This document shows positions 1-22,800 of a stretch of DNA of 24,112 nucleotides, one piece after another. The position numbers and the translations under genes were made by a program. Each line of letters begins with the position of its first letter. The first letter of the stretch is position 1. Origin of the DNA: a virus; the IMG/VR virus record IMGVR_UViG_3300017917_002986, positions 1 through 24,112 of that record; one strand, 5' to 3'. The notes below the pieces were generated by a model. It was given only the letters and a program-made list of their open reading frames with translations, searched no databases and was not told the DNA's origin.

Positions 1-1004
1 TGTAGATCTCTGTAAATTTCCAGCAGTGTATTTTTGTTGTAACTGTCTGATTCTATGGCATTGATCTCTTTGCTGACTATTTCATCCACAGATTCAAAAC
101 GTGTGATATCCAATGTGCTGGTCAGCTCATCATCTTTTTTGCCAGGAATCAACACAATCTCTCTACAGTTGTAATCTTTTATGAAAGTTTCTTTGATAAA
201 ACTAGCTTCTTCGTAACTGATGTCTATGTCCAATGTAACTTGCAAATGCATTTTAGGTTTGATAATATTTTTGGCATCATTCAACAATTCGCTGAGATTA
301 ACTTTTAAATATCTAGGACAATTGTACCAGTTAATATATCTAGGAGCACCACCATGTTCCATGATCATCATGCCTCGTTGATCATCATTCACATCAGCAT
401 AGTTGTGTGGCATGGGATTGCCTATGTAATGTATGTTCTTTGCTGTTTGACGTTTGTGAAAGTGCCCTGTGAACACATATTCTTGATTGACAAAGTCACC
501 GGTCTGTATCAATCCAGTATCTGGCATCTCTATCATGGCATTCATTAAGAAGTGTGGCAATTCAAAATGACCAAACATGTATCTACTTTTGATTTTTTTA
601 ATTTGTTTGTATTCATCACCCACCAACCAAGGTACCAAAGTCACATCATCTATAGTGGTAGTTTCTGTTATCACAGTGATGCCTGGAATAAATCTAGCGA
701 ATTCCACTGAATGAATATCTCGCTTGTCTTTGTAATATAGATCGTGATTGCCAGGAAAGAAATAAAATCTTTCAAATGCTTTGCCCAGTTTTTCCAAACA
801 TTTGATAGAACTGTCCATGGTCATCAAATTCAATGAATTTCTATTGTGATGCCAGTCACCACAGAATATACCTGTTTCACAATTGTTCTGTTTGGCTTGG
901 TCTATGTACCAATCCACAAATTCTTCACAGTCTTGATTGTGTATCACACTGTTGCTTTTTAAACCAAAGTGTATATCAGTGAACACTGCTGCTTTTTTAA
1001 ACAT
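1..1004 (-). CDS. 47: Recombination endonuclease subunit gp47 (Mre11/SbcD-like), 3' end cut by window edge
   Basis: Metallophosphoesterase nuclease that in T4 pairs with the gp46 ATPase to resect DNA ends during recombination-dependent replication. Read on the minus strand, 334 codons are open from the ATG at 1004 to the window edge. T4 gp47 is about 339 aa, so only a few residues are probably missing. The phosphoesterase motifs appear in order: DIH (D10, H12), GDWHH (D50), GNHD (N86, H87, D88), GHFE (H146) and GHFH (H181, H183), which are all the metal ligands expected of the Mre11 core. An AAAGGA ribosome-binding site lies 9 nt upstream of the ATG. It is 56 nt downstream of gp55 on the same strand and probably shares the promoter at 1910-1938. 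No gp46 is visible; it would lie off the left edge. The family call is firm. Confidence 0.93.
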   Translation of the reverse strand, partial: MFKKAAVFTDIHFGLKSNSVIHNQDCEEFVDWYIDQAKQNNCETGIFCGDWHHNRNSLNLMTMDSSIKCLEKLGKAFERFYFFPGNHDLYYKDKRDIHSVEFARFIPGITVITETTTIDDVTLVPWLVGDEYKQIKKIKSRYMFGHFELPHFLMNAMIEMPDTGLIQTGDFVNQEYVFTGHFHKRQTAKNIHYIGNPMPHNYADVNDDQRGMMIMEHGGAPRYINWYNCPRYLKVNLSELLNDAKNIIKPKMHLQVTLDIDISYEEASFIKETFIKDYNCREIVLIPGKKDDELTSTLDITRFESVDEIVSKEINAIESDSYNKNTLLEIYRDL

Positions 1005-1060: not shown

Positions 1061-1885
1061 TTAGGACTTCTTTTTAAACTCTCTATCAACGGCTTTTTCG
1101 TAAGCCTCTTTGTTTTGCCTAGTGGAGCTAGGCATCATATCGTTCATTTCCATAATATCATCTCTGATATTTTGATTTCTTTTTTCAATATTGATAATTC
1201 TCACAAATGAATTGGTCACTGCTGCTGTGTAATAAGCAAATGGATTATTAGATTTACTTTCATCAAATTGTAATCCAATTTGAGTCAATTGCAGTATGGC
1301 TTGTCCTTGCATTTCATCATTGTAAGTGTATCCTCTCACATTGCCTCTGGTGGCATAACGTTCACACAGTTTCATCCACATCATGGCCAACTTGGCAGTG
1401 GGTTTGCCACCTTCTTTGTTGAATTTGCCGTTGTGCATGCCACCCTCCCAATGACTTTTGCCCACGCATACAAGATTGTCTTTGTCATCATACTTCCAAT
1501 GTTGGAAAGCAGGAAAGTTCACTTTAACTTTTGAATCTGCTGGATTTTTAGGATTTTTTTTGCGTCCAGGTTCGTTGGGTATGTGATCATAGGTCATCAC
1601 TCTAAATACCAGGTCCTCTTTTTTAATTTTTTTATAATCCACTTCACAATCAGATAACTTAACTTTGGGATCTACTGCTTTGCGTTTTTCAAAATCTTCT
1701 TGAGCCAATCGTTTGGCTCTAGCTCTTTTAGCTTCTGCTATGGTTCTAACATTGATGCGTTCCAATGATGACACAATAGCATCATATCTATGATGTTCAT
1801 CTTTAATATAACTGCAATAGCTATTCTTGGATTTGTGTATCTCTTCCAAGAGATCTTTATTGTTAAGATAATTGATTTTTTTCAT
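1061..1885 (-). CDS. 55: Late-transcription sigma factor gp55
   Basis: Phage sigma factor that redirects host RNA polymerase to late promoters. It is 274 aa, longer than T4 gp55 (about 185 aa). The N-terminus (YLNNKDLLEEI, residues 6-16) matches the start of T4 gp55 (YVNNKELLQAI). The C-terminal third (about 165-240) holds the sigma-region-2-like core, with FDESKSNNPFAYYT (207-220) followed by AAVTNSFVRIINIEKRNQ; T4 has FDETKYKNPHAYITQ at the equivalent place. Between them, about residues 30-160, is a basic segment absent from T4, including LVFRVMTYDHIP (92-103) and a lysine/proline-rich stretch. The C-terminus ends in basic residues (REFKKKS) without the hydrophobic clamp-binding tail (SLDFLYE) seen in T4. 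An AGGA ribosome-binding site lies 5 nt before the ATG. The gene is transcribed from a sigma70 promoter at 1910-1938. Confidence 0.9.
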   Translation of the reverse strand: MKKINYLNNKDLLEEIHKSKNSYCSYIKDEHHRYDAIVSSLERINVRTIAEAKRARAKRLAQEDFEKRKAVDPKVKLSDCEVDYKKIKKEDLVFRVMTYDHIPNEPGRKKNPKNPADSKVKVNFPAFQHWKYDDKDNLVCVGKSHWEGGMHNGKFNKEGGKPTAKLAMMWMKLCERYATRGNVRGYTYNDEMQGQAILQLTQIGLQFDESKSNNPFAYYTAAVTNSFVRIINIEKRNQNIRDDIMEMNDMMPSSTRQNKEAYEKAVDREFKKKS

Positions 1886-1909
1886 GCAAATCCTATGTAA
1901 TTAGCCTTC

Positions 1910-1938
1910 AGTATAAACTACGCAGTTAATTTTGTCAA
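1910..1938 (-). promoter_or_regulatory. Sigma70-type promoter for gp55-gp47
   Basis: On the minus strand the divergent gap reads TTGACA (1933-1938), a spacer of exactly 17 bases, then TATACT (1910-1915). That is a perfect -35 and a near-perfect -10. The expected start point is near 1903, leaving a leader of about 18 nt with the AGGA ribosome-binding site before the gp55 ATG at 1885. It should be read by unmodified host polymerase, so gp55 would be made before late transcription. Confidence 0.8.
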
Positions 1939-1944
1939 TAAATA
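1937..1944 (+). promoter_or_regulatory. Late-type promoter box (AATAAATA) upstream of the gp48-like gene
   Basis: AATAAATA differs from the T4 late box TATAAATA only in the first base. It lies 18 nt before the ATG at 1963, which fits a start near 1950 followed by an AAAAGG ribosome-binding site (1951-1956). The same octamer occurs in two other gaps (6880-6887 and 7366-7373). Its first two bases overlap the -35 of the divergent sigma70 promoter. Confidence 0.7.
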
Positions 1945-1962
1945 CTTGAGAAAAGGTAGAAT

Positions 1963-2814
1963 ATGGCACTTAAACAAAACAACGTAGATCCAGAAGCAGC
2001 AGTAAACGGATTTTTGGGCAGTGATCCGCTGGGCGACAATCATTTGATCGACAAGGCAGGCACCACAGCCAGCGATTTTGCCAATCCCACAAATCTTGTG
2101 AGCAATATCAGATCTAAAGACTTGCCAAAAGATGGTTTGCCAAATTTAAAAACTAGAGTGCAAGCAGAAGGAGTCAGCAAGCCTGGAGAAAAAGATTGGC
2201 GTGTTAAATTAAGTATACCAAACAGTTTCGTAGACAGTCAATTGATAAGACCCTTGCTTAAAACTGGTGGATTTGCTTTTCCATTCACTCCATCAATCAT
2301 CATGAGTCATTCAGCCAATTATTCATCTCATAATCCTGCACACACCAACTATGCAATGAATTCTTTCAATTACAGCACAGTGGATCAAATTCAAATCAAT
2401 GGTGATTTTTTTGTGCAGAATGGATTGGAAGCAGAATATTGGGTGGCAGCAGTGCATTATTTAAGAAGTGTTACTAAAATGCGTTACGGTGAAACCAGTT
2501 CAGATGCCGGATCACCACCACCAGTGGTTTTGTTGAATGGTTATGGAGATTTTGTTTTTAAAAATGTTCCTGTAGTAGTTGCAAGTTTTAACGTGGAGTT
2601 GCCTCAAGATGTAGATTATATCAGCACAGGCATCAATCAGGAAGTTCAAGGAGATTTTGATGAAGGCACATATAAAAATATAGCATGGGCTCCATCACAG
2701 AGTCAATTCACCGTGACAGTAATGCCACAATTTAGCAGAGCATCCATATCACAATTTAATATGAATGATTTTGTGAGAGGCAATTATATCAAAGGTGAGG
2801 GAGGATTTATCTAA
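1963..2814 (+). CDS. 48: gp48-like baseplate tail-tube protein
   Basis: A 283-aa structural protein of the type annotated as baseplate tail-tube cap gp48 in marine T4-like phages. Recognisable stretches are RVKLSIP (80-86), TGGFAFPFTPSI (101-112), NPAHTNYAMNSF (124-135), INGDFFVQNGLEAEYW (145-160), HYLRSVTKMRYG (165-176), PPPVVLLNGYGDF (185-197) and LPQDVDYI (213-220). The C-terminus VRGNYIKGEGGFI is also typical. In T4, gp48 (364 aa) and gp54 (320 aa) together join the baseplate hub to the tail tube and are related to the tube protein. This shorter protein could be closer to gp54, and the two cannot be separated by eye. First gene of the rightward late operon, with its own late box and ribosome-binding site. 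It overlaps gp53 by one base. Confidence 0.72.
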   Translation: MALKQNNVDPEAAVNGFLGSDPLGDNHLIDKAGTTASDFANPTNLVSNIRSKDLPKDGLPNLKTRVQAEGVSKPGEKDWRVKLSIPNSFVDSQLIRPLLKTGGFAFPFTPSIIMSHSANYSSHNPAHTNYAMNSFNYSTVDQIQINGDFFVQNGLEAEYWVAAVHYLRSVTKMRYGETSSDAGSPPPVVLLNGYGDFVFKNVPVVVASFNVELPQDVDYISTGINQEVQGDFDEGTYKNIAWAPSQSQFTVTVMPQFSRASISQFNMNDFVRGNYIKGEGGFI

Positions 2815-2816
2815 TG
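2795..2816 (+). promoter_or_regulatory. Strong ribosome-binding site with TAATG stop-start overlap, gp53
   Basis: GAGGGAGGA ends 8 nt before the gp53 ATG (2814-2816), and the stop codon of the preceding gene (TAA, 2812-2814) shares its last A with that ATG. The strong Shine-Dalgarno sequence fixes the gp53 start, and the overlap points to translational coupling and matched output of the two proteins. Confidence 0.75.
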
Positions 2817-3116
2817 AGCAATTACAGATCACAAAGTCCTTGGTTTGCAACACCTTTGGTGAATGATCAATATTTAGATTTGCTTTCTATCAGACCCATT
2901 CCAGCCACTGCGGATGACGTGCTGTACACCGTGGGAGTGCAATACAATCACAGACCAGATCTGTTGGCGTATGACTTGTATGGATCTTCCAAACTATGGT
3001 GGGTGTTTGCACAAAGAAACATGGACATAATCAAAGACCCCATATATGATTTAGTTGCAGGTGTAAAAATTTATCTTCCACAAGGACCCAAGTTGAGACA
3101 ATCATTGGGAATATAA
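2814..3116 (+). CDS. 53: Baseplate wedge subunit gp53
   Basis: A 100-aa baseplate wedge protein. In T4, gp53 (196 aa) locks neighbouring wedges around the hub during baseplate assembly. The core of the family is visible: YTVGVQYNHRPDLLAYDLYG (38-57), then KLWWVFAQRNMDIIKDPI (60-77) and the closing AGVKIYLP (82-89). It is about half the T4 length and matches the compact form seen in marine T4-like phages, with essentially only the conserved core left. Translation is probably coupled to the gp48-like gene by the TAATG overlap, and the next gene begins 3 nt after its stop. Confidence 0.88.
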   Translation: MSNYRSQSPWFATPLVNDQYLDLLSIRPIPATADDVLYTVGVQYNHRPDLLAYDLYGSSKLWWVFAQRNMDIIKDPIYDLVAGVKIYLPQGPKLRQSLGI

Positions 3117-3119
3117 TTC

Positions 3120-5372
3120 ATGCCCATAGAAAATTCCAATAACATAAGAGTTCAACAATCAAATAATTCCGCATCAGGAGACACTTTTGGATCTTCCACA
3201 GCAGATGAAATACCACAAGCCACAACCAGTGCTGATGATTCAGTGTTGTTTCCAAACAAAATTCCCAACCCGTTGCACAAATACAATTCATTCAATACTC
3301 TCTTTACTTTGGCTTGTCTTACTCCTGAAGAGATGAATTTTCCTTATAGGTTGCGTGTGCAATCTCCTTCTGTGATTATTCTTCGCAGCGGAGGATCAGG
3401 AAAAAGTAAATTTCCCACACTGTACGATTTAGATTTTGATGGTGGGGGATCCAATAACATTCGCAGAGAATACTTTATTAACAATGTTCAAATCAAATCT
3501 ATTATGGCTCCCAATGAAAAAAGCATGACCAACGCTAACAAAATGGAATTCACAGTGTTTGAACCCTACAGCATGGGAACATTTATAGAAACTATTAGAT
3601 TGTGTGCTGTGAAAGCAGGATATAAAAATTATATTCAAGCACCATTTTGTCTCATTATGGAGTTCATAGGAATAGATCTAGAAAATAACGCAGTGAATGT
3701 CACAGACAAAAACAATAGCAGCACCAAAAGAATCATACCAATATTGCTTTCTGAAATTAATTTTACTGCTGACCAATCTGGAGCCACTTATCAAGTGAGT
3801 GCAACAGCACAACCAGAATATGCCATGCGAAACACCGTGCAAAGCATAGCCAATGATACCACACTGTCAGGGCTCACAGTTCAGGATTTTTTGCAAGGAT
3901 CTTTACAGGCAGAACTGAACAGAACCAAATGGTCAAAAAATAAAAAAGATCAAAAAAAACCAGTAGTGATTGATGATATTATCATAAATTTTCCCAAATT
4001 GGATCAATTAAATTCACAGAGCACAAGAACTGGATTTACAGGAGATGAAAAAGCCACGTATGATCCCAATGAACAAAGAACGCAATTGGTAGGCACAGGA
4101 ACAGCAGTCACTAGCACATTTGAAAGCGTATCCTATAGACAATCCACAAGTTCATTGAACGATGTAGGCAAAGCCAAAATGAACTTCACTGATGAACAAA
4201 GAAAAAGCGTGCTCACAGAAGACGAAAAAGAACTGTGGGACAGCAAAAGAAAAATATCAGTTACTAGCAAAATAAAAGATACAGGTGAAAGCATATTATC
4301 ATTCAAAAAAGGTGCTCGCATAGAAGATGTGATTACCAATGTAATATTGTACAGTGATTATGCAAAATCATTATTGGGAGACAGCGATGCTAATGGATTT
4401 AAAAAATGGTTTAAAGTGGTTCCCAGAGTTTTTTATATCAATGATACTGAAATATTAGAAAAAACAGGAGCCTATCCCAAATTGATTGTGTTTGACGTGA
4501 TAGAACATCAAGTGCATGAATCTTTATTTGTTAAACCAAACAAAAAAACCAATGTGGAAAAAATTAATAAATTTGTTGTGAAAGAATATGACTATCTTTT
4601 TACTGGAAAAAATTTAGATGTGTTAAAATTTGATATCCAAATCAACGCTGCCTTAGTGGCACAATTGCCCAGCGATCAAGCAGATTCCAAAGAAGATCCC
4701 AATAAAAAATCCAAAACAGAAAAAGAAAAACAATCCAACATAGACAACAGCAAAGGTGACACAGCCAGCACCAACACAGGGTCAGGCATAACAGTGACCA
4801 ATTATTTTTATAGCCCCAGAAAAGCCACCATGGAAGCTGTGGGAGAGCTCAGCACTGAACAAAAATTAGCATTGGAATTTCATGATTTTATAACCACAGG
4901 CGGAATATCATTTTCTAAAACAAGTTTGACCATATTGGGTGATCCTTATTTTATTGCTGACAGCGGCACAGGCAATTATTATGCTCAAGTGGAAAAAGGT
5001 GCAAATGGCAATCCTAAATTTGTCAACAAAGACGGCAGCATGGAACCCACATTCAGTGGTATATATATTGTGGTAAACTTTAGAACTCCTATCGATTATG
5101 CCAGCAATGGAGAAACTATATTCAAAGACACAGCCAGTCAATTGAATAAAAATTTTGTAAAACTGGATCAGTTCAGTGGAGTGTTTAGAGTGACTCAGGT
5201 AGAAAATATTTTTGAAAATGGTGTGTTTAGGCAGGAATTAGAATTGACAAGAGTTACCAATCAAGAATTGCCAAAAACTCAAAGCAATTCCAAAGGATCT
5301 GCAGAAATGATGAGTGCAGACCCAATTGTATCTCCTGATGATCAGATGGTACAAAATGCTAATTTAGGATAA
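3120..5372 (+). CDS. Virion structural protein, probable baseplate hub component
   Basis: A 750-aa protein of the family annotated only as virion structural protein between gp53 and gp5 in marine T4-like phages. The first 40 residues are Ser/Asn/Thr-rich and probably flexible. The conserved part opens with NPLHKYNSFNTLFTLACLTP (50-69), a motif found in hub or internal structural proteins of other phages. Residues about 265-400 are charged, and about 517-560 form a Lys/Ser/Asp-rich linker. The C-terminal domain ends with FSGVFRVTQVENIFENG and RQELELTRVTNQ, which resembles the last beta-barrel of tail-hub proteins. Its place directly before gp5, where T4 needs the gp27 hub partner, suggests a gp27-like role, but this is inference from position and shape. 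A GGGA ribosome-binding site lies 9 nt upstream. No enzyme motif was found. Confidence 0.65.
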   Translation: MPIENSNNIRVQQSNNSASGDTFGSSTADEIPQATTSADDSVLFPNKIPNPLHKYNSFNTLFTLACLTPEEMNFPYRLRVQSPSVIILRSGGSGKSKFPTLYDLDFDGGGSNNIRREYFINNVQIKSIMAPNEKSMTNANKMEFTVFEPYSMGTFIETIRLCAVKAGYKNYIQAPFCLIMEFIGIDLENNAVNVTDKNNSSTKRIIPILLSEINFTADQSGATYQVSATAQPEYAMRNTVQSIANDTTLSGLTVQDFLQGSLQAELNRTKWSKNKKDQKKPVVIDDIIINFPKLDQLNSQSTRTGFTGDEKATYDPNEQRTQLVGTGTAVTSTFESVSYRQSTSSLNDVGKAKMNFTDEQRKSVLTEDEKELWDSKRKISVTSKIKDTGESILSFKKGARIEDVITNVILYSDYAKSLLGDSDANGFKKWFKVVPRVFYINDTEILEKTGAYPKLIVFDVIEHQVHESLFVKPNKKTNVEKINKFVVKEYDYLFTGKNLDVLKFDIQINAALVAQLPSDQADSKEDPNKKSKTEKEKQSNIDNSKGDTASTNTGSGITVTNYFYSPRKATMEAVGELSTEQKLALEFHDFITTGGISFSKTSLTILGDPYFIADSGTGNYYAQVEKGANGNPKFVNKDGSMEPTFSGIYIVVNFRTPIDYASNGETIFKDTASQLNKNFVKLDQFSGVFRVTQVENIFENGVFRQELELTRVTNQELPKTQSNSKGSAEMMSADPIVSPDDQMVQNANLG

Positions 5373-5377
5373 CAAAT

Positions 5378-6877
5378 ATGTTTAGTATAGATAAAAGATC
5401 CGGCAAAGGTAGAATAATGAAAAATCCTGGTCCTTATGAGGCCATTGTGACCAGTCATCTGGATGGCAAATATTCAGGCACGCTGGAAGTGGAATTATTG
5501 AGGTCCAACGATCCAGGCAATGATGCTGATGCAGTAAACCAACGTGTGCAAGTCAAATATCTAAATCCATTCTATGGTGTGACCAATTACAATGGTGTGA
5601 CCAAAAATCACGATTATGCCAGCAGTCAACAGAGTTACGGCATGTGGTTCATACCACCAGATCTAGGCAACACAGTGTTGGTGATATTCGTAGAAGGCAA
5701 CATCAACAAAGGTTATTGGTTTGGATGTGTGCAGGCAGAAAATCAAAATTTTATGATTCCGGATGGCAGAGCTGCCACCACTTACACAGACACCACCGAC
5801 AATGAAGATTTAGTAGGCAAAAAATTGCCTGTGGGCGAATACAACAAAGAATTATTGGAAAATTTAAAAAACGTCACAGATTCTACTAAAAATTTAAAAC
5901 CCATTAATCAACAATTTGTGGACATACTGAACAATCAAGGATTGTTGGAAGATGAGATCAGAGGCATAACCACATCAAGTGCTAGACGAGAAGTGCCCAG
6001 CAGTGTGTTTGGAGTGAGCACTCCAGGACCTTTGGACAAACGAGGCAATGCCAGAGGCAAGGGCGGCAGATATTATTCTAGATTGGGCGGCAGCAGCATT
6101 GTGATGGATGACGGAGATGATAAATTTTTGCGTAAAACTTCAGCAGCCACTGGACCTTCAGAGTATGTGAACAGACTCACAGGAGATGAACAAGAAACAG
6201 CAGATGAAACCATACCTCACAATGAATTGGTGCGTATTAGAACTAGAACAGGTCATCAAATACTTTTGCATAATTCAGAAGATTTGATTTATATTGGCAA
6301 TGCCAGAGGCACCACATGGATAGAATTAACTGCCAATGGCAAAATAGATGTGTATGCCAAAGACAGCATCAGTTTTCACACAGAAACAGATTTTAATTTT
6401 AAAGCAGATAGAGATGTGAACATTGAAGCAGGTCGCAATGTGAATATTAAAGCATTAAACAATGTGCAAATGGAAAGCAATCAAAATTTAAATCTAGTGA
6501 TAGGTGCTGATGGGTTTATAACCACAGGATCCAATTTAAATGTGAACAGTGCCAACAATTATTTCACGTCTACCAGTGAAACTCATATTAAAAGCGATGT
6601 TCAATACAGTTCAGGATCAGAAGCATATTCAAATTTTCCAACAGGAGGAACAGCCGATGCCACTGCAGCAGGCAGTGCTTCTATTTTGAATACATTCACT
6701 AATCCAGGAGAAAATTCAGAAAACATAATGAAACGTGTGCCACAGCATGAACCTTGGCCACAGCATGAAAATTTGAATCCCGCTAATGTTAGTGACGATC
6801 TAACGGATAGGGAAAACCCCACTAACATTAACAATTCGTCTCTAACTCAAATTAAGGATACTTTTACAAAAAATTAA
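5378..6877 (+). CDS. 5: Baseplate central spike gp5, lysozyme domain absent
   Basis: A 499-aa central spike (VgrG-like) protein; T4 gp5 is 575 aa with a lysozyme domain in the middle. Here the N-terminal OB-fold is present (about 15-130, including YGMWFIPPDLGNTVLVIF at 87-104 and GYWFGCV at 112-118). It is followed by a helical linker and a conserved segment (RRYYS-type region, GGSSIVMDDGD at 237-247, IRTRTGHQILLHNSEDLIYI at 287-306). The triple-stranded beta-helix then starts: GTTWIELTANGKIDVYA and short repeats such as DRDVNIEAGRNVNIKA (345-360). No lysozyme-like segment or catalytic Glu/Asp pattern is seen between them. Near the C-terminus is a His-rich motif VPQHEPWPQHENLNP (454-468) that may bind metal at the tip. 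An AGGA ribosome-binding site lies 8 nt before the ATG and 5 nt separate it from the preceding stop. Confidence 0.87.
   Translation: MFSIDKRSGKGRIMKNPGPYEAIVTSHLDGKYSGTLEVELLRSNDPGNDADAVNQRVQVKYLNPFYGVTNYNGVTKNHDYASSQQSYGMWFIPPDLGNTVLVIFVEGNINKGYWFGCVQAENQNFMIPDGRAATTYTDTTDNEDLVGKKLPVGEYNKELLENLKNVTDSTKNLKPINQQFVDILNNQGLLEDEIRGITTSSARREVPSSVFGVSTPGPLDKRGNARGKGGRYYSRLGGSSIVMDDGDDKFLRKTSAATGPSEYVNRLTGDEQETADETIPHNELVRIRTRTGHQILLHNSEDLIYIGNARGTTWIELTANGKIDVYAKDSISFHTETDFNFKADRDVNIEAGRNVNIKALNNVQMESNQNLNLVIGADGFITTGSNLNVNSANNYFTSTSETHIKSDVQYSSGSEAYSNFPTGGTADATAAGSASILNTFTNPGENSENIMKRVPQHEPWPQHENLNPANVSDDLTDRENPTNINNSSLTQIKDTFTKN
6784..6830 (+). repeat. 11-bp perfect inverted repeat with inner GGG-CCC hairpin near the gp5 3' end
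   Basis: TAATGTTAGTG (6784-6794) is exactly complementary to CACTAACATTA (6820-6830), with a 25-nt loop. Inside the loop GGG (6810-6812), AAAA and CCC (6817-6819) can form a second small stem. The structure lies in the last coding codons of gp5, 47 nt before its stop and just upstream of the gp25 late box. There is no U-tract, so it is not a standard intrinsic terminator; mRNA protection or processing between promoter units is possible. Confidence 0.5.
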
Positions 6878-6879
6878 CG

Positions 6880-6887
6880 AATAAATA
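6880..6887 (+). promoter_or_regulatory. Late-type promoter box (AATAAATA) directly before gp25
   Basis: Same octamer as at 1937-1944 and 7366-7373, located in the 15-nt gap between the gp5 stop (6875-6877) and the gp25 ATG (6893). Only five bases separate the box from the ATG, so a transcript begun at the usual late distance would start at or next to the start codon. Confidence 0.6.
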
Positions 6888-7339: not shown

Positions 7340-7365
7340 AATTAACTGAGCATTTAATCAAACCT

Positions 7366-7373
7366 AATAAATA
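7366..7373 (+). promoter_or_regulatory. Late-type promoter box (AATAAATA) upstream of gp6
   Basis: AATAAATA in the 54-nt gap between gp25 and gp6, 20 nt before the gp6 ATG. A start near 7379 leaves room for a weak GGA ribosome-binding site (7386-7388). This promoter would feed gp6 and the giant ORF behind it. Confidence 0.68.
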
Positions 7374-10300: not shown

Positions 10301-10819
10301 TATAATAACTTTGGCAAACAAATTAATCTAATTAAATCTATCAGCGATGAAGTGATATACCATCCAGTCAAATACAAAATATTGTTTGGAAACAAAGCCG
10401 AAACTAAATTTCAGGCAGTGTTCAAAGTGGTCAAAAATTCTGGAGAAGTGGTCAATGATGATGACGTAAAGGTCAGAGTTATCGAAGCTATCAACGAATA
10501 TTTTGCTCTGGAAAATTGGGATTTTGGTGATATATTTTATTTTTCAGAATTGAGTGCTTATGTTATGAATCAATTGGCACCAGACATAGTAACTTTTGTG
10601 ATAGTGCCAGACCAAGCCACACAGACGTTTGGCAGTTTGTTTGAAATCAAATCTGAAAGTGATGAAATTTTTATAAGTGGCGCAACGGTTGACGACGTTG
10701 AAATAATTGATGCTGTAACTGCTTCAAGATTAAAAGCCAGTGGCATAGTGGTTTCATCCACATCCACCAGCAACGTAGGTATAACCAGTACTGCCACTTC
10801 TAGTGGGAGTACAGTTTAA
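7394..10819 (+). CDS. 6: Baseplate wedge subunit gp6 (enlarged)
   Basis: A 1141-aa wedge protein; T4 gp6 is 660 aa. gp6 dimers form the ring that ties the wedges together around the hub. The N-terminal part is typical (LRRSMINYLRQNYPEDFNDY, ALIDLIAFLGQNIAFRIDLN, ELAERRESVLRLARLLSYNA). The gpJ-like core includes YYTQNRMITGEDYN near residue 424. The C-terminal domain is also conserved (HPVKYKILFG near 986; NEYFALENWDFGDIFYFSEL near 1034-1053). The extra length lies mainly between about residues 470 and 960. Within it, residues 813-824 match a calcium-binding EF-hand loop (D813, D815, D817, G818, D821, E824). The last 25 residues are Ser/Thr-rich. An in-frame ATG 10 bases upstream (7384) leads to a stop after 8 codons in another frame and is not the start. 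The stop overlaps the next ATG by one base (TAATG). Confidence 0.92.
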   Translation: MSSTDRLNRLLLAEDWKKVYQSFRNADFKSYDFDNLRRSMINYLRQNYPEDFNDYLESSEYLALIDLIAFLGQNIAFRIDLNSRENFIELAERRESVLRLARLLSYNAKRNQAANGLLKVESVTTTEEIIDSNNVNLSNQTIIWNDPSNEDWYEQFVKVLNAVLPVNTKVGRPSKTDTVNGIPVELYQFNSNIQEVPVFSFTKSIDGRNTSFEIVSVDLNDGTVEETAPLPANKLTFIYKDDGKGNASSNTGFFFHFRQGVLQQGEFTVDLPTPNQIVAVDATNINQSDVWLYSLDTAKNEKELWTKVSATEGNNVIYNSTAKSIRNIYSVITRTEDRINLQFADGTFGNLPKGAFRIYYRTSDNRQFKIVPGDMNNIQISVPYISTAGKDETLTINLALQYTVDNATNSETDASIRTNAPSTYYTQNRMITGEDYNVAPLAVNQEIIKIKSVNRTSSGISRYFDLLDATGKYSSTNLYGKDGVIYKETINDALTFSYVSRTDIEGIINNSIEPILSNTKLFNFYLNNFSKILITDVVMTWNQSTKDTNLTTGYLTDPELNVLEVGSFTDSVLKYLEIGAKLKFVAPAGKYFTVDGRLLTGDPVEIGDSTVRWTTVVNVIDNGTVIQNDDSGPIIFNDVIPTGAVLVQILAKFTKYLTTDVKLQMLDEIFANNTFGLRYDIDTRNWDIIDENNLDLYGDFSTGKTGDISNQQLDASWLLLFTTDTELYTVTYRGVRYVFESDKEIRFYYDSTDKNYNTTSGKIIKDKITVLSINNAPDSFEALKQDIAWQVVAEYRDAQGYVDSKKIEITFFDSDDDGLMDNPESFDNLIPASNYIYQKKIVTTDGVEDYRYVNAVDENIIAVQNVASIGSYHDYTENTNFYITEDNVFKTLDVSTMTLSDNSDYKAFTGRSDLKFQYVHSTDVTNRIDPSVTNIIDIYLLTRTYDSDFRSYLDGNIDSKPLPLSSDDMYNNFGKQINLIKSISDEVIYHPVKYKILFGNKAETKFQAVFKVVKNSGEVVNDDDVKVRVIEAINEYFALENWDFGDIFYFSELSAYVMNQLAPDIVTFVIVPDQATQTFGSLFEIKSESDEIFISGATVDDVEIIDAVTASRLKASGIVVSSTSTSNVGITSTATSSGSTV
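9830..9865 (+). other. EF-hand-type calcium loop encoded within gp6
   Basis: These codons encode DSDDDGLMDNPE (gp6 residues 813-824). Positions 1, 3, 5 and 9 are Asp, position 6 is Gly, position 8 is hydrophobic and position 12 is Glu, the full pattern of a calcium-coordinating EF-hand loop. Flanking strands look beta-rich rather than helical, so it may be an EF-like loop in a beta domain, not a paired EF-hand. Confidence 0.6.
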
Positions 10820-10821
10820 TG
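10805..10821 (+). promoter_or_regulatory. Ribosome-binding site and TAATG overlap for the giant ORF
   Basis: GGGAG (10805-10809) lies 9 nt before the ATG at 10819, and the gp6 stop TAA (10817-10819) shares its last base with that ATG. In the giant reading frame a stop codon (TAG, 10801-10803) sits six codons upstream, so this ATG is the only supported start. No promoter box is visible, so expression depends on the gp6 transcript. Confidence 0.75.
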
Positions 10822-13800
10822 GCATACAATAACGATCAAGAAGAATTTCCACTTCCGGTAAACAATCAGACAGAAACAGAAAGAAATTCTGCCAATCTAC
10901 TGCCTAGATTTTTTAGAACTCCCACAAATAAAAAGTTTTTATACAGCACGCTAGATCAATTGCTGAGTCCAGGCACCGTGGAAAAAATCAGTGCTTTCTA
11001 TGGTAGAAAAACAGCCAAAGCATTCACACCCAACGACAATTACATAGAGGAAGTGACCAATGATAGACAAAATTATCAATTGGAACCTGTGGTGCTGAGC
11101 AAAGATTCATTGGGCAATGTTACTTTTTACAAAGATTATGTGGACTATGTGAATCAAATCAAAACATTGGGCGGCAACGTGGACAATCACAGTGCTTTGA
11201 ATGCTCAAGAATATTACAGTTGGAATCCGCACATTGATTGGGACAAGTTTGTTAATTTTAGAGAGTATTATTGGTTGCCACAAGGACCTGACACCATCAC
11301 TATCACAGGTCAACAACAACAATTGCAAAGCACTTACACAGTGAGATTGTCTGACAATTTGGACAATTATTCTTATGTGTTGACTCCAGATGGACAAACA
11401 CAAAATGCCACTATCACTTTGTACAAAGGAATCACTTATAAATTTGACATAGACACACCAGGCATGCCTTTCACGATCAAAACAGCCAGAACACTGGATG
11501 AAGATTTTCTTTATGATGTGGGAGTGGATCAACAATCCATAGAGAAAGGCATTATCACATTTGAAGTGGGCATAAACACTCCTGACACTTTATATTATGT
11601 GTCTAAAAATGACATCAATGCTTATGGATTGATTAAAATTGCCAGTATTGAAGAAAACAGTGTTATAAATGTTGAAAAAGATATCGTTGGTAAGAAAACA
11701 TTCACACTACAGGATGGCACAGCGTTGTCCAATGGAATGAAGATCAATTTTAAAGGACTTGTTACACCAGAAAAATATGCCACAGACGAATGGTATGTGG
11801 AAGGAGTAGGAGAAGCCATAGTGTTGATCAAAGAACAAGACCTTCAAGTGCCCAATGACATTGCTGATGAAAATTTGGAAGGATTTGACGCAGAAAATTT
11901 TGACAAGGTCACGTACGAGATTGACGATCCCAATAGAGATATCAAAGATTATATTGTTATCAAAAGAAGTTCACCAGATCAAAACCCTTGGACCAGAGCC
12001 AACAAATGGGTACATAAATCTGTGCTGCAAACAGTGGCCAACTACAATGGAACCACGCTGGACACAGATGAAGCACAAAGAGCCAAACGTCCCATTATAG
12101 AATTTGAAGCAGGATTAAAATTATATAAATTTGGAACTCAAGCCAAACCTTATGTGGATGTGGTGGATACATTTACCACAGACGTTTTTTCTGACATAGA
12201 AGGAGCCACAGGCTACAACGTGGATGGCATAGATCTAGTGGATGGCATGAGAATATTAGTGACTGCTGACACAGATGTGTTGGTAAAAAACAGAATATTC
12301 AAAGTAAAAATTATTAATTTTGGTGGTGATGGAGATCCTACCAACAAACAAATTTCTTTGGTGGACACCGATGACACTCAACCCATGGTGGGAGATGTGG
12401 TGTTGATTGCCAGCGGCACAGAAAACCAAGGGCAAATGTATTACTATGACGGAAACACTTGGAATATAGCTCAAGAAAAAACAAAAATTAATCAAACACC
12501 ATTATTTGATCTGTTTGATGAAAATGGAATCAGTTTCAGTGATGGAGAAACTTATCTCAGCACTAATTTTTTAGGCAACAAAATTTTCAGTTATAGAGAG
12601 GGCACAGGCACTGCAGATACAGAATTAGGATTTGCTCTTTCTTATAGAAATGTCAACAATGTGGGCGACATTGTGTTTGATTTTAATCTATTATCTGAAT
12701 CTTTTACCTATCAATCACAAGATCAATTGATAACTCAAAATACTGATGTGGGTTATTTGAAAAAATACACAGATAGAACCACAAACACCACAGTCACAGG
12801 ATGGGCCAAAGCACAAAGTTTTAGCAAACAATTGGTGGTGAGACAATACACAGGATTAGAACAAACGAATAGATTTGCTGTGGATGTGTATGATCAAAGT
12901 GGCACTCTTACAGATTTAAAATTAAAAGTGTATGTGAACAATGTATTAAAAAAACAAACTGTGGATTACACCATTGTTAAAAGTAACAATGTATCATATG
13001 TACAATTGAACAACGCATTGACCGAATCTGATTCAATCATCATCAAATCACACAGTTCAGCTGTGAAAAATGCCAATGGCTATTATGAAATGGCCATAAA
13101 TTTAGAAAGTAACCCTTTCAATGAAAATTTAAATGATTTTACATTTGGAGAAGTGTCCAATCATGTGGAAAGCATTGTGGAACAATTGGATAATTTTGTT
13201 GGATCTAATCCTGGCACAAACAATTTAAGAGATTTAGGACCATTATCTTCATATGGCACAAAATTTGTACAACACAGTGCTCCGTTGAATCTAGCAGTGT
13301 ATCATGTGTCACAAAAAGAAGTAAATGTGATCAAGGCTATTAAATTTGCTCAAAAAGAATACGATAAATTTAAAAAAACATTTTTGCAAACAGCTGAAAA
13401 TTCTAATTTTGATGGTTCTGTGCGTGAACACGTGGAACACATAATGAAACTTATCAATGAAGATAAGAACAGCAACATGCCTTTCTATTTCAGTGATATG
13501 GTTCCTTTTGGGGCAGCCAAACGCAATACATTCACAGTGTATGATGACAGCAACAAATATTTTGCTTTGAGTAAAACATTTTCAATGAGCGTGCTCAGCA
13601 CCAAAGCAGTTCAAGTTTATTTGAATGATGAACAATTGATACACGGTATTGATTACACATTCACATCAGAAAATTTCTGTTATATTACTAAGGCCTTGTC
13701 TGTGAATGACATTGTGGAGATATTTGAGTACGAAAGCACTGATGGTAATTTTGTGCCACAAACTCCCACTAAATTAGGATTGTATCCGAGATTTCAACCA

Positions 13801-16800
13801 AAAAAATATTTGGACAACACATTGATCAATCCAGTGAACGTGATTCAAGGACATGACGGCAGCATCACAGTGGCATTTGATGATTACAGAGATGATTTGT
13901 TATTGGAATTAGAAAATAGAATTTACAACAACATTAAAATTGAATTCAACAAAGACTTACGTAATTTATACGATTTTATTCCAGGCAAAGACAGAAACAC
14001 AGGATACAGTCTAACCAATATTGATTCCAGCATGTCTGCTGATTTCATCACATGGAACAGTGCTGTGGGCACTTTGGATTACACTGAAAATTATTTCTAT
14101 GATAGCACAGACAGTTTCACTTACAACTATGTGTACATGACTGCTTTTGATGGATCACGTTTGCCAGGTTTTTGGAGAGCCGTGTACAAACAAGCCTATG
14201 ACACAGATAGACCGCACAGTCATCCTTGGGAAATGTTGGGATTCAGTGAACAGCCCACTTGGTGGAATTCAGTGTACGGTCCAGCACCCTACACCAGTGA
14301 TAACTTGATTCTTTGGGAAGATCTTCAGAATGGTGTGATCAGAGAGCCAGGTAAAAAATTAGTTTATGATAGCAGATATGTGAGAACGGATCTATTAAAT
14401 CACTTGCCTGTGGATGAAAATGGAGAATTATTGAGTCCGTTGGACAGTGGATATGCTGAAAATTATGTGGCCACTTTGAGCAATGGAGCATTTAAATTTG
14501 GAGATCATGCTCCAGTGGAAAATGCTTGGAGACGCAGTTCCAACTATCCATTTGCTCTGTTAAAGTCCATGATATTAAATAGAACGGCACACACGGTGGC
14601 TGTGAATTTTGATGCTGCAAGAGTGGTAAGAAGCATCACAGATGAAATAATTTATAGCACGACCAAAAAAAGAATCACACTCAAAGATCTGGTATTTCCC
14701 AACAGCAGGGCAGATGAAAATTATGTGTTGACTTCAGGATTGATCAATTACATCAGCAATTATATCAAAACAGATGTGTTAAACAATTATGAAAATTATC
14801 AAAATTCATTAAAGAATCTAACTCAGCATTTGGGATTCAAAGTGAAAGGGTTTACTGAAAAAGAAAAATTTAAGTTGTTATTGGACAGCAGATCTCCTTT
14901 GAATAAAAGCAATGTGTTTGTGCCAGATGAAAATTATGACATCTATCTAAACACCAGTTCACCCATTGATGTGTTGGTGTACAGTGGAGTTATTGTGGAA
15001 AAATTATCAACAGGATTTGCTATCAAAGGTTATGATCAATTTAATCCAGTTTTCAAATATTTTGCTCCTATATCATTACAGAATGATCCCGTAAAAAAAG
15101 TAGGCGGAGTCAGCAAATCATACATTCAATGGACTGCCAATCATGTTTACACAGCAGGACAGATAGTTCAATATCAGAACAAATTCTATATAGTCGATAG
15201 AGATCATTTGAGTGCTTCTAAATTTGATCCAAGCAAATATACCAAACTGGCAGAATTGCCCATAGAAGGTGGAGTCACTGCTACTTTCAGTAGACAGTTT
15301 GAAAACAAAATCAGCACTTTAAATTATGGCACAGTGTTGCGTACTCAGCAAGAAGTGGTGAATTTTTTATTGGGTTACAGCAAATATCTTGAATCCAAAG
15401 GATTTATTTTTGAAAATTTCAATCAAGACATCAATGTGGTAGAAAACTGGAGCTTGAGTGCTCAAGAATTTATGTTTTGGACCACACAGAATTGGAAAGC
15501 TGGAGCGGTATTATCATTAAGTCCAGGAGCCAACAAAATAAAATTACAAACCAACTATTCAGTGGCTGACAATATATTTGATAATTTTTACGATTATGCT
15601 GTGCTTAAAGCAGATGGAACCAAATTGAATAGAGAAAAAATAAGTGTTGTGCGTCAGGGCAATAACTTTTCTATGAATGTTAAAAACACTTCCGATGGAA
15701 TATATTTTGTAAAAATTCCATTGGTACAAAAAGAACACGCAGTGGTTATTGATAATGTCACAGTGTTCAATGATGTGATTTATGATTTAGCACCAGGATA
15801 TAGACAAGACAGAATCAAAGTGATAGGTTACGTGGCCAGCAATTGGGATGGATCGCTGAATGTGCCAGGATTTGTATTTGATGAAGTAAAAATAAAAGAA
15901 TGGCAACCATACACAGACTATGACATGAGCGATGTGGTCAAATACAAACAATTTTATTACAGTGCTAATTCTCACATCATAGGCAACAGCACTTTTATGT
16001 TTGATGAATGGACCAAACTTTCAGAAAAACCATTGTCTTCATTAAAACCAAACTTTGAATACAAAACCAATCAGTTTGGTGATTTTTATGATCTAGACAC
16101 AGATAACTTTGACGTGGAGCAACAAAAACTTGCTCAGCATTTGATAGGTTATCAAAAGAGAGAATATCTACAGAATATTATCAATGATGATGTATCACAA
16201 TATAAATTCTATCAAGGATTTTTACAGGACAAAGGAACCAAAAATGCTTTGGAAAAATTATTTAATTCATTGGCCAGTGCTGACAAAGACAGCATTGAAT
16301 TCTATGAAGAGTGGGCCATTAGAACAGGTCAATACGGTGCTGCCACTGGATTTGACGAAGTAGAATATCTATTATCAGAGAAAAAATTTAAATTAAATCC
16401 ACAACCAATAGAATTGAGCGATTCTGTTTCTTTTGATTCGCCCAATTTTGTTTATAAAATTAAATCCAGCGAAGCATACCTAACTCCAGAAGACTATGAC
16501 CATGCTCCTTTCCCAACCAAATATTTCAACGAAAGTTATTTGAAAACTGCTGGGTTTGTGGATCCCAATGATGTGAACTTCACTGTTAAAAATTATGAAG
16601 ACATATTGACTTTGGACACTGCTGAATTAGCATACGATCAGTATGTATGGGTGGGTTTTGAAAAACAAAGCTGGAATGTGTACAAACACAACCAAGTATC
16701 AGATCAGATTTCATCAGTGACGGAAAGCAACAACAATGTGGTGATCGAATTGATATCAAACACCTCCAACATCCAAGTGGATGAAATTGTATCTGCAACA

Positions 16801-19800
16801 TTGAATGGAACCATCCAATTGTTCAAAGTAAAAACAGTAATTGGCACCACTGTCACTTGTTATAAAAATGGCAATACAAATCTTGGCACCAATGGAACAT
16901 TGGGCAGATTCGTCAGTATGAAATTGGCCACATTATCAGAAATCAATCAAAAAATTATAGACAATGGCAAATCTGTGGGAGAATTGCTGTGGGTAGAGAA
17001 CGATGGCAGCGATCGTTGGGTCACTTTGAAAAATGTTCCAGTATGGCAAACCCATCAAGAGATAGCAAATCCATCGGATGATTCATCAGGAGAATTTTCA
17101 AGATCAATTGCAGTGGATGCAGCCAACACCACATTAGCAGTGGCAGATCTGAACAATGCTGTGTACATCTACAGAAGAGCTTCCAATTCCAATCAATATA
17201 CTTTGAGACAAAAAATTGATGCTCCAAACAGTTTATGGACAGGTGACGGAGATTTTGGAGCCAGCATGGACATCAGTGCAGATGGCCGATATTTAATAGT
17301 GGGTGCTCCAGCAGCCAGTAATTTAAAAACTAATTATGTGGGAGATTATGTCAGCACATCATCATACAATATTAATGATGTAGTGAGACACAATGAACAA
17401 TTATGGAGAGTTGTAAATCCAGTATTGGGTCAAGATCCATCTGTGGATTTCACCACCTTTGATAGTGCTGCATTCATATATGACGCTGAATATAATTCAA
17501 TAGATAATGTTTATCCTGATATAAAAATATTGTTGAGAGGAGATTATGTTTTCCCAGCAGTAACCACTCAACACATGTTGATCAGAGCTTCTGTTAATCA
17601 ATACAGGGGATCAGCAGTGGGAGACAAATTACAATTGATTTGGAATGATTTGAATACTCAATACCCCACAGGCAATGATCCATTTGATGGCAGTGCTGCA
17701 GGTATTGACAAAGCATTCATTGATGGTGAACATATAATTCAACACAAAGTGGATGAAATTTTAAATGTTGATTTGACAATTATTGCCGTCACAGTGAACG
17801 ATGTGGTAAAAACTGACACGGCAGAAGGAACTGTGTGCTATGTGCGTAAAGAAGGCACACAATCTTTAATTTATTTAAAAGATGTGAATGGCAAATTTGA
17901 TGATTCAGGATCTTTGACTGTGGGTATATTAACAGTGGGAGATTATAACAGAGTGATTGCTGAAGATTACGACAGCGTGGCTGGATGGTGGTATATAAAT
18001 TTAGGATTCACTTTAACTTCTTCTGAATTAAGTGATTCAAAAAAATCTTTGGTGGTTCGAGACATAATCAAAGCTGCAGATATTCGAGCAGCAAAAAACT
18101 ATTACAATATTTTAGACACTGAAGCCACACAAAACATAGTATGGCCCACAGCACCAACTCCTGCTTCACAAATTTCTATTTTGAGCTACTACAAACAATT
18201 CAGTATTGCAGGTCAACCAGTGGTAACAGGCATTCAAAATGATGATAGATATTTGATCAGAGTACCTAAAACATTAAGCAATCAATACACCACACCTTAT
18301 GTTTCAGACAGTGAAAAAATAGGAGTATGGTTGAACACTATTAGAACCGGAGATCCTTTGGACAGATATGACATCAGCGACATAGCAGAAGATTTAACTT
18401 TTGAAGAAATAAATTCAGTCAGTTATGGTGATTCGTCGTTTCCAACTAAAAAAATTAATGATATATGGAATGGATGGATTCGAGTTCTAGCAGAACCTGA
18501 TGGATTGGGCACATTTTATGTGCCTCAAGTGGGCGATACTGTGGAAGACTCAGTTACTGGATCACAGGCACAAGTTGCTCATGTCAAAACCATAGGATTC
18601 AATACTTTACAAATTTATATCAAAAACAAAAATGGAGATTTTTCACTGGGTTCTACATTAGGCGACTCAGCTGATATTATTTTAAAAGGTGCTCCTGATA
18701 GAACAGTGGGAGAATTGCAAAGAAGTGAATTGGAAAATTCAGTTGCAGGTAGTTTGTTTGTGTTTGAAGCAGCCAGTCTTTTAGAACCACAAAACAATAC
18801 ATCTGTGTACAATTATGTAAATGGATTAGAATACTGGTTCTGGGATGAAGACAAACAAGACGGAGTTGCCAGATCAGCCAGTACCCCTTCAGAAGAAAAT
18901 AGAGATTATGTGCAGGTGTTTAACATACCAGCAGGTTTAGGAGCAGCATCAGCTTATGTTAACGAAGGAGCATTTTTGGTGTATGAAAGAGCCGTAAATG
19001 GCACTTATAGTTTATATAATACCTACAGCACTCCTAACAGAACATCCAATGCTAGATTGGGTACTAAAATTAAAGTCAGTCAAAATGGCAATGAAACCAC
19101 AGCATTTGTTTCCAGTGTATACAATTCTCCAGACACAGGAAAAATTTATTTTATTAAGAATAACTCCAGCGAGAGATGGCATTTAGGAGTGGATCCACAA
19201 TACACAGGAATATTTGATGTCACAGAAAGATATTACACTGATGATCTAGTGATATACAATGATCAAGTATATAAGAGCACAACCAATCAAGGACCTTCAG
19301 CATTTGATCTAGATTTTTGGACTTTGCAAACTGAAGGTGTGGATTATTTGGGATATGTACCAAATGACAGTGGTATAACATTGGAAGGTGATTCCAGTCT
19401 TGATCTGAACAATATAATAAATTTTGCCCAAGACTTTGATGTGAGCAACACTGGTGGAGTGTTGGTTGCTTCAGTGAATTACACATCACCTGCTAGAAAC
19501 AAAGTGGTGGTTTACAAATTATATGATGGTAGATATCAATATAAACAGACCATTTCACCTCCAGATGATTCAGAAGACAACACAGATTATGCTGTTTCAG
19601 TGGCTGTGAGCAGTGATGGAAAATTTATTGCTGTGGGCAGTCCTGCTGCTGACACAGATTACACTGACATGGGAGTAGTTTATGTGTATCAATTGGTAAA
19701 TGGATCATACGTGTTGAGTCAAACATTAAGCAGTCCTCATCCTCAAACCAATGAACAGTTTGGAAAAAATTTAGATTTTGACGGCAACACTTTAGTGGTG

Positions 19801-22800
19801 TCTAGCGTGAATAGATTGGATGAATCTTCCAACATTGTGCCATCAGGTTCGGTTTACATCTATGAAAATTTCAATGATGTTTTCATATATGCTGAAACAT
19901 TTGAATATGCCAATCAAATATTGGCAGACTTTGGCAGAGATATTTTGATCTCTAGCAATCATGTATATGTGGCATTGCCAAACTTTGATAACAGCGAAGG
20001 ACGCAATGGATTAGTGGTTGATTTTAGAAAAAACAACAATGCCAGCAGCTGGTTAGCACATAAATCTCCAGTGGACACAATAAATTTAGAAAAAATTAAA
20101 GGTATATTCCTTTATAACACAAAAACTAATGAATTATTAAACAGATTGGATTATATAGATCCTATTCAAGGAAAAGTTGCTGGATTAGCTGAACAAGAAT
20201 TGTATTATAAAACTTATTATGATCCTGCTGTGTATACTTTGGGCACTGCTGCAGTGAGTGTGGATGTCAACAACAGTTGGAGCAACATCCAAGTGGGCAG
20301 ATTGTGGTGGGATTTGAGCACAGTGAAATTTTATGATCCTTATCAAGTTAATATTATCTACACAACCAACTATTGGAATAAAATATTTCCTGGTTCTTCT
20401 GTGGATGTGTATGAATGGGTAGAATCCAAATACACTCCATCTCAATGGAATAAATTAGCTGATACTAAAGAAGGCATTGCTGTGGGCATCAGTGGCACCG
20501 CCAAATATGACAATACTGTGTATGTGAGCAAACAATTGTATGATTCTGTGTCTGAAAGTTTCAGCACAAGATATTATTTCTGGGTAAAAAATAAAAAAGT
20601 TTTACCAAATTTAGAATTTAGAAAATTAAGTGCTTATGATGTGGCACAGTTGATCGAAGATCCTAAAAAACAATCTTATAAATTTGTGGCATTGTTGGCA
20701 AATAATAAATTTTCTTTGTACAACTGTAATAATTTGATGCGTAATGAAGAAATTGCCATCAATTTCCGTTATTGGACCATTGAAAATCAAAACATCAATA
20801 TTCACAATGAATATCAATTGATCAGTGAGGGAGTATCTTACAGTCGACCTAAAAAAGAAATTGAATCAGTGTGGTTTAACAGTTTGATAGGCTATGATGA
20901 AAACTTTAAACCAGTGCCAGATGTGAATTTAAGTGTGAAATATCGTTATGGTACATTGAGAAAGCCTCGACAAAGTTGGTTTGTTAACAAAACCGAAGCA
21001 CTCAAACAGGTAATTGAAAGAATCAATGGAGTGCTATTGAAAAATCAAATTGTATCCGACTGTGATTTAACAAGATTAACAGAATCTGAAAAAATTCCAA
21101 GCACAGTGACCAGATTGTATGATTCAATCAAAGACACACTGTCTGAATTACAATTTATAAACACCAATAAAATTGAGCAAGCAGAATTAAGACCCATCAT
21201 TCAAAATGGAAAAATAGTGGATGTGATTATTGTTAATCCAGGTTATGGATACAATGTGATACCCACTTATGAAATAATGGACACTGTGGGGTCAGGAGCA
21301 AAATTAACACTGACCATTGACGCTTTGGGCAAAGTAAACAGTGTCATCGTGAATCAAGAAGGGTCCAGCTATACCAGCAATGCAAGAATAGTTGTGAGAA
21401 AGTACAGCGTATTGATAAATTCAGATGCAGAAGTAAACAATAAATGGTCCGTACACAGCTGGGACGAAGACATTCAACAATGGCAAAGAGTATTGTCGCA
21501 ACGTTATGACGTGAATCAATACTGGAGTTATGTGGATTGGTATGCTGACGGATACAGTCAATTCACAGAAATTGATCACACAGTGGCAGCCAGTTATCAA
21601 TTGCAATTGATTGATGATGTGATAGGCGATGTGGTAAAAATTGAAAACATTGGCACTGGTGGATGGTTGTTATTGGAAAAAATTGACAATCAGGACAACG
21701 TGGATTACACAATCAATTATAAAACCATAGGTAGACAGAATGGAACCATTCAATTCTCCAGCAATTTATATGATACCAGCACATCTACCATAGGATACAA
21801 CAGCACCAGTTTTGACGTGATAGTGTATGATAATCAACCTGTAATAGAAACTAGAGTTATTTTAGAAACTGTAAGAGATTATATTTTTATAGACGAATTA
21901 GAGGTGGAGTACAACAAGTTATTCTTCTCTAGTTTGAGATATGTGTTCAATGAACAATTGTTTGTGGATTGGGCATTCAAGAGCAGTTTTGTCAAAGCCA
22001 CTCACAATGTGGGAGAACTCACACAAAAAACGGTTTACAAAAATGATAACTTGTCCAATTATCAAGATTATATCAATGAAGTAAAACCTTACAAAACCAA
22101 AGTGAGAGAATATATCAGTGCTTATGAATCCATTGATCAATCTCAAACATTGACCACAGACTTTGATCTACCAGCCACTTATGATTCGACTACCAATCAA
22201 ATCATCGTAAGCACAGCAAAAATGATCAACAATCAAATTGTTGATTCTAATCTCACTGAAAATTATCCCAACAAACACTGGTTGGACAATGTGGGATTCA
22301 AAGTTACAAATATTAAAATAGCCCAAGTGGGCAGTGGATATTTGGGAACTCCCGCCATCACAATCACAGGTGGGGGTGGCACAGGAGCCACAGCCAAAGC
22401 ATTTGTGTCCAACGGCCGATTAACACACATTCAAGTGACCAATTCGGGATCTGGTTATCTATCAGCACCCACAGTGAACATATTGGGATCTTTGTCCACC
22501 ACTGGAGTGGCTGGCAAAGCAGTGGCCATATTGGGAGATTCTTTGGTCAAATCCACTCACATAAGAGTTAAATTTGATAGAACCACAGGAGTATTGCTGA
22601 TAACTAATCTGAGTAGAACTGAAACGTTCACCAGCAACGGATCTCAAATCAAATATCCTTTGAAATGGCCAATCAATTTGAAATCCAACAAAGTGAGAGT
22701 GATTGTGAATCAACGTCCTGCATTGTTTAGTGAATACACTTATAACAATGAGCAAGACAGCACTAAATCATATGTGAGAAGCAAAGGATATATTCAATTT

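Follow-up and report, generated by a model that had tools for sequence, protein, structure and literature searches.

In the uncultured T4-related phage whose DNA is analysed here, and in its close relatives, synthesis of the late sigma factor and expression of the baseplate genes appear to be coupled at a single short site. The DNA is a stretch of 24,112 nucleotides (the window) comprising positions 1 to 24,112 of IMG/VR virus record IMGVR_UViG_3300017917_002986. Judged from the sequence, there is a slightly better than even chance that this is a composite site in which an early gp55-gp47 promoter is nested in a late promoter on the opposite strand, with exclusive occupancy of the two and feedback by gp55, the whole constituting an early-to-late switch. 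As we envisage it, host sigma70 polymerase would initiate gp55-gp47 transcription at the minus-strand early promoter, which would lie inside a gp55-dependent, plus-strand late promoter serving the baseplate operon, in the upstream half formed by that promoter's upstream element and spacer. A single polymerase would be seated at a time. As gp55 rises, the late complex would occupy the site, either unaided or together with any factor that reads the upstream element, turning on the baseplate operon and blocking further early transcription of gp55-gp47.

The predicted early and late starts lie ~48 bp apart, a distance at which two polymerases could not both be seated, so that the early promoter should be blocked while the late complex is in place. 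Mutual exclusion of the early and late polymerases follows from this predicted geometry, and negative feedback by gp55 on its own promoter is compatible with it. No transcription-start map of a close relative came to light in the literature searched.

The gp55 gap and its promoters

The first-pass annotation had placed gp55 opposite baseplate genes, and phrog matches bear out both assignments. On the minus strand, a gp55-like late sigma factor of 274 aa (1061..1885; phrog_12791, 1.2e-74, with a match also to phrog_234) is followed downstream by a gp47-like recombination nuclease subunit (3..1004; phrog_100, 1.6e-62) that is cut by the window end. The plus strand carries, as first gene of the late operon, that of a virion/baseplate structural protein (1963..2814; phrog_12050, 6.6e-47), and then genes for a gp53-like baseplate wedge subunit (2814..3116; PF11246, phrog_7145), a virion structural protein (3120..5372; phrog_11190) and a gp5-like baseplate hub (5378..6877; phrog_13211). 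The gp47-gp55 pair diverges from the baseplate genes in the same order in the cultured phages PA5oct, MIJ3, RaK2, 121Q, Munch and others, and the two clusters also diverge in Atu_ph07 and Phosso, where an extra gene stands ahead of the baseplate genes. Farther along the window, positions 10819-24111 form one ORF of at least 4431 codons that continues past the window end, specifying a giant protein after gp6 that is perhaps tail-related.

T4 gp55 (7d7c_F) matches the window gp55 by phmmer (1.4e-5) at the N-terminal motif and the sigma-2 domain, between which the proteins of the window and its relatives carry ~130 residues more than T4 gp55. An AlphaFold2 model of gp55, for which the input was confined to the window and metagenome loci, has a mean pLDDT of 87, and its top fold match is T4 gp55 (7d7c; E 0.007, probability 1.00, TM 0.56 to target). 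Sequence and model alike identify the sigma-2 homologue expected of a gp55-type late transcription system. Solved structures gave no convincing match beyond the sigma-2 domain by which the insertion could be assigned to a known DNA-binding fold. The C-terminus (1061-1130), read by eye, has no obvious T4-like hydrophobic clamp-binding motif, and in relatives this region, again by eye, is charged or Pro/Lys-rich.

The putative early promoter, recognised by promoter scan and by conservation, consists of a -35 hexamer TTGACA (1933..1938, minus strand), a 17-bp spacer and a -10 hexamer TATACT (1910..1915, minus strand; TATAAT in many relatives). It matches the consensus at 11 of 12 positions, as befits a promoter of the sigma70 type (TTGACA, 16-18 bp, TATAAT), and the position of its -10 predicts a transcription start at 1903 on the minus strand. 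The promoter had been proposed from inspection at 1910-1938 and emerges as the top match of the promoter scan, ranking first among 81 sigma70-like matches in the first 20 kb. That total is no more than chance gives, so the class of matches as such says little; the gp55 early promoter still stands out, its pattern being expected by chance 0.04 times in the window on average.

On the plus strand, the predicted late box AATAAATA (1937..1944) is identified by motif scan, conservation and non-coding enrichment, and the spacing of T4 late promoters would put the late start at 1950. Motif scans also located a second box AATAAATA before gp25 (6880..6887, plus strand) and a third before gp6 (7366..7373, plus strand). 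The first-pass annotation had recognised the box at 1937-1944, and it proves to be one of three occurrences of ATAAATA in the 24-kb window (1938, 6881 and 7367, against 6.8 expected by chance), all of them intergenic, on the plus strand and pointing at the next ORF. Across the window and six long relatives, in which non-coding DNA makes up 1-4% of the genomes, NATAAATA is strongly over-represented outside coding sequence (P 1e-7 to 1e-29, with ORFs called by a simple longest-ORF rule), and the variant ACTAAATA is intergenic in 15 of 18 instances among the six long relatives. These distributions are what would be expected of a TATAAATA-like late box lying close upstream of late genes.

The two promoters had been described as overlapping by two bases at 1937-1938. 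The overlap is real, although it involves the first two bases of the -35 (TT, read 5' to 3') and not the last two, and its extent is ~36 bp rather than 2 bp. The reason is the near-palindrome ATAAACT-ACGC-AGTTAAT (1913..1930, plus strand), 6 bp before the late box, which we interpret as an upstream element of the late promoter; it occupies most of the early spacer and has 3 bp in common with the early -10. With the early spacer serving as late-promoter element, the early promoter would be nested inside the late promoter, an arrangement that goes beyond mere contact.

Conservation within and beyond clade A

Relatives of gp55 were gathered as 160 loci from two scans, some with a start codon taken from the tblastn match. 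In scan 1, the early promoter and the late box are present together in 42 of 42 distinct intact gaps, window included, with a register offset of -1 where the box is AATAAATA and 0 where it is ACTAAATA. Scan 2 found the same register in 62 of 63 distinct gaps of clade A; the exception (L179) keeps the early promoter, and its nearest late box has moved and lies 56 bp off. Of 155 intact loci, in which gp55 is 66-97% identical and which down-weighting reduces to an effective 84 sequences, 154 carry the fused -35/late-box string, and that string occurs exactly once per contig in 12 long contigs of up to 156 kb. At 70% gp55 identity, identity reaches 84% in the 36-bp core and 76% in the early spacer, the values for fourfold-degenerate sites and gap flanks being 34% and 36%. 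In the ACTAAATA lineages, the two elements have just one loosely constrained base in common, yet they remain adjacent. The gp55 gap of three loci (L074-L076) holds an additional AATAAATA adjoining the early -10, besides the usual ACTAAATA.

Together with the non-coding enrichment of the late box, this conservation strongly supports the overlapping early and late promoters that had been proposed. The expectation that both would be conserved together across relatives holds for clade A, where the 154 loci keep the two elements, and fails outside it, where the early promoter is displaced or unrecognised though both genes persist. Among relatives with gp55 at most 58% identical, the genes and the late promoter are retained and the early promoter is displaced, mostly by 35-37 bp (37 bp in L275, with gp55 58% identical), or unrecognisable; the gaps of L288, L290, L308 and L369 yielded no recognisable early promoter, and the canonical element and box are present there. 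Clade B, comprising 26 distinct PA5oct-like loci, has its early promoter exactly 35 bp from the late box, and an ATAAAA...GTTTAT element keeps its position beside that box; the predicted starts are ~84 bp apart, and two polymerases might coexist. In the remaining loci of the PA5oct-like set the early promoter lies 27 to 71 bp from the late box, and in PA5oct itself 22 bp. Since both genes are kept where the early promoter has been displaced or is unrecognised, the overlap is not required for a gp55 system in general.

In RaK2-like phages, a different gp55 promoter has its -10 31-33 bp to the left of the late box and its -35 region 2-4 bp from it. Clade A forms one group in the gp55 tree (100/98), from which RaK2-like phages are distant, although the tree contains several long branches and its rooting is arbitrary. 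Close packing on so distant a branch suggests that the close-packed early/late geometry, as read from sequence, arose at least twice. In Agrobacterium phage Atu_ph07 (L121; gp55 38.5% identical), the gap (~3894-4000) contains AGTTAATTTGTCAACTAAATA, close to the clade A sequence, and no clear -10 was seen in that gap.

The upstream element and competing readings

The spacer of a sigma70 promoter would be expected to vary freely, and yet a TTAA within the early spacer is almost invariant. We propose that the conserved early-promoter spacer is the upstream element of the late promoter, a feature newly found here. A second copy, ATTAACTGAGCATTTAAT (7341..7358, plus strand), precedes the third late box by 7 bp at a place that has no early promoter, and the element likewise persists in relatives whose early promoter has moved off. 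Among 111 late boxes, a weight matrix built from the gp55 locus detected the motif at 8 others, in each case 6 or 7 bp upstream, as compared with 0.08 matches on average in shuffles. These matches precede gp6, a gp26-like gene and one other gene, and they therefore represent about three independent promoters across several genomes, matches in different genomes being partly orthologous and not independent. A scan of IMG/VR for TTAANTNNNCANTTAATN{7,9}TAAATA returned at least 120 stretches; among the matches listed, 71 had a spacing of 9, 31 of 8 and 18 of 7, and genes of the lineage (gp6/gp25, gp26-like or gp55) accounted for 67 of the 102 listed at spacing 8 or 9 and for 1 of the 18 listed at spacing 7. 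When 7-4-7 dyads were sought without regard to sequence, with gp55 loci removed, 6 lay at 6-7 bp (shuffle mean 0.5, maximum 4). We also considered an extension of early promoters genome-wide as the source of spacer conservation and rejected it, TTGACAAAATTAA being present at most once per contig. In two other loci (L097 in G002, at ~2496, and L096 in G006, at 71560-71610), two late boxes ~50 bp apart, one on each strand, serve a gp26-like gene and a gene of ~720 residues on the opposite strand, with an upstream element immediately ahead of the latter's start codon.

We advance as a tentative proposal, with a modest chance of being right, that a subset of late promoters in this branch of the T4-related phages is bipartite, composed of the 18-bp near-palindrome and the late box, and that at gp55 one factor both activates the baseplate operon and shuts the sigma gene. 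The near-palindrome would be read by a phage factor or by the inserted region of gp55, the early promoter would have been built within the element, and a switch resembling that of phage phi29 would have evolved independently. It is rather unlikely, in our estimate, that control rests chiefly with a separate phage DNA-binding protein acting on the near-palindrome, by activating the late and repressing the early promoter or by repressing both until replication, with occlusion by gp55-polymerase secondary. Such a protein would suit an element that has its centre at about -28.5 relative to the late start and between the two early hexamers, that is symmetric in consensus (ATTAACT-N4-AGTTAAT) and held at a fixed distance from the box, that recurs at late promoters devoid of an early promoter, and that has no conserved counterpart at its position in T4 late promoters (PMC2988020). 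The IMG/VR matches listed, with spacings N9 and N8 (71 and 31) outnumbering N7 (18) and lineage genes concentrated at the former, also favour it. Against this reading, the gp55 copy of the element has an imperfect left arm, and the element could be read instead by the inserted region of gp55 or by a gp33-like protein. Moreover, the arms do not covary at the pair tested, where 12 of 43 are complementary against a shuffle mean of 12.8. Covariation therefore gives no proof of a dimer-binding site, which is a reading and not a result.

Two further explanations would dispense with any local switch. Chance likeness to promoter consensuses in AT-rich intergenic DNA is highly improbable. The gap is indeed AT-rich, and NATAAATA arises in 6.0% of dinucleotide shuffles of its 77 bp; an early promoter of at least 11/12 arises in 0.37%, however, early and late elements together in 0.015%, and both in the observed register in none of 20,000. 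These shuffles, and conservation across saturated divergence, led us to reject it. An unlikely but more substantial alternative is that the overlap is mere economy in a genome that is ~97% coding, each promoter being conserved for its own sake and sigma70 being replaced globally. The 1-4% of non-coding DNA and the want of overlap in sister groups having both genes accord with this view, and gp55 could shut sigma70 promoters globally through competition for core, which would make local occlusion unnecessary. On the other hand, the ACTAAATA lineages could part their elements cheaply by small insertions and almost none has been observed, and RaK2-like phages have a promoter of another class at almost the same place. 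Indels cannot easily part overlapping elements, so the fixed register may in part be frozen history.

Relation to known systems

The nested early-to-late switch that we favour finds its nearest known parallel, by working principle, in the phi29 A2b/A2c-A3 switch, with which the geometry here is compatible; the relation is one of likeness and not of membership. In phi29, early and late genes occupy opposite strands, and early products acting between the promoters repress early and activate late transcription simultaneously (PMC3100819). Whereas phi29 employs a sequence-specific protein and a nucleoid protein (p4 and p6) with the host sigma, in the window phage the late sigma factor would itself be the early product, and the late promoter would contain the early one.

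T4 middle promoters carry a MotA box near -30, a phage-specific element that replaces the -35. The window phage differs from them in the sequence of its box and in that the core is a late box, not a sigma70 -10. Pelagimyophages and cyanophages reportedly lack motA and asi (PMC7029224). Like T4 late promoters (gp55, gp33, gp45), those of the window phage combine a gp55-family sigma with a T/NATAAATA box, and ACTAAATA matches the variant consensus given for Aeh1 (PMC2988020). At the -35 position, T4 late promoters are not conserved in sequence (PMC2988020), whereas a subset of those considered here has a conserved upstream element 6-7 bp before the box and so departs from the strict T4 form. The CBB/RaK2 group has the same ATAAATA late motif, the CBB gp55 gene lies just downstream of an RpoD-like promoter predicted in silico (Porf_244), and that promoter is assigned, also in silico, to a second class with -35 TGAAACG, unlike that of the window phage; overlap with a late box is not described in the portion consulted (PMC5259590). 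RaK2-like phages share the divergent gene order.

The timely stop of early protein production in T4-like phages has been described mostly for T4 itself. In a widely sampled, uncultured group, one conserved 36-bp site would couple the making of the late sigma factor to the activity of that same protein. The arrangement predicts a second late-promoter element that is absent from T4 late promoters, and natural variants with promoters 35 bp apart would serve as ready controls.
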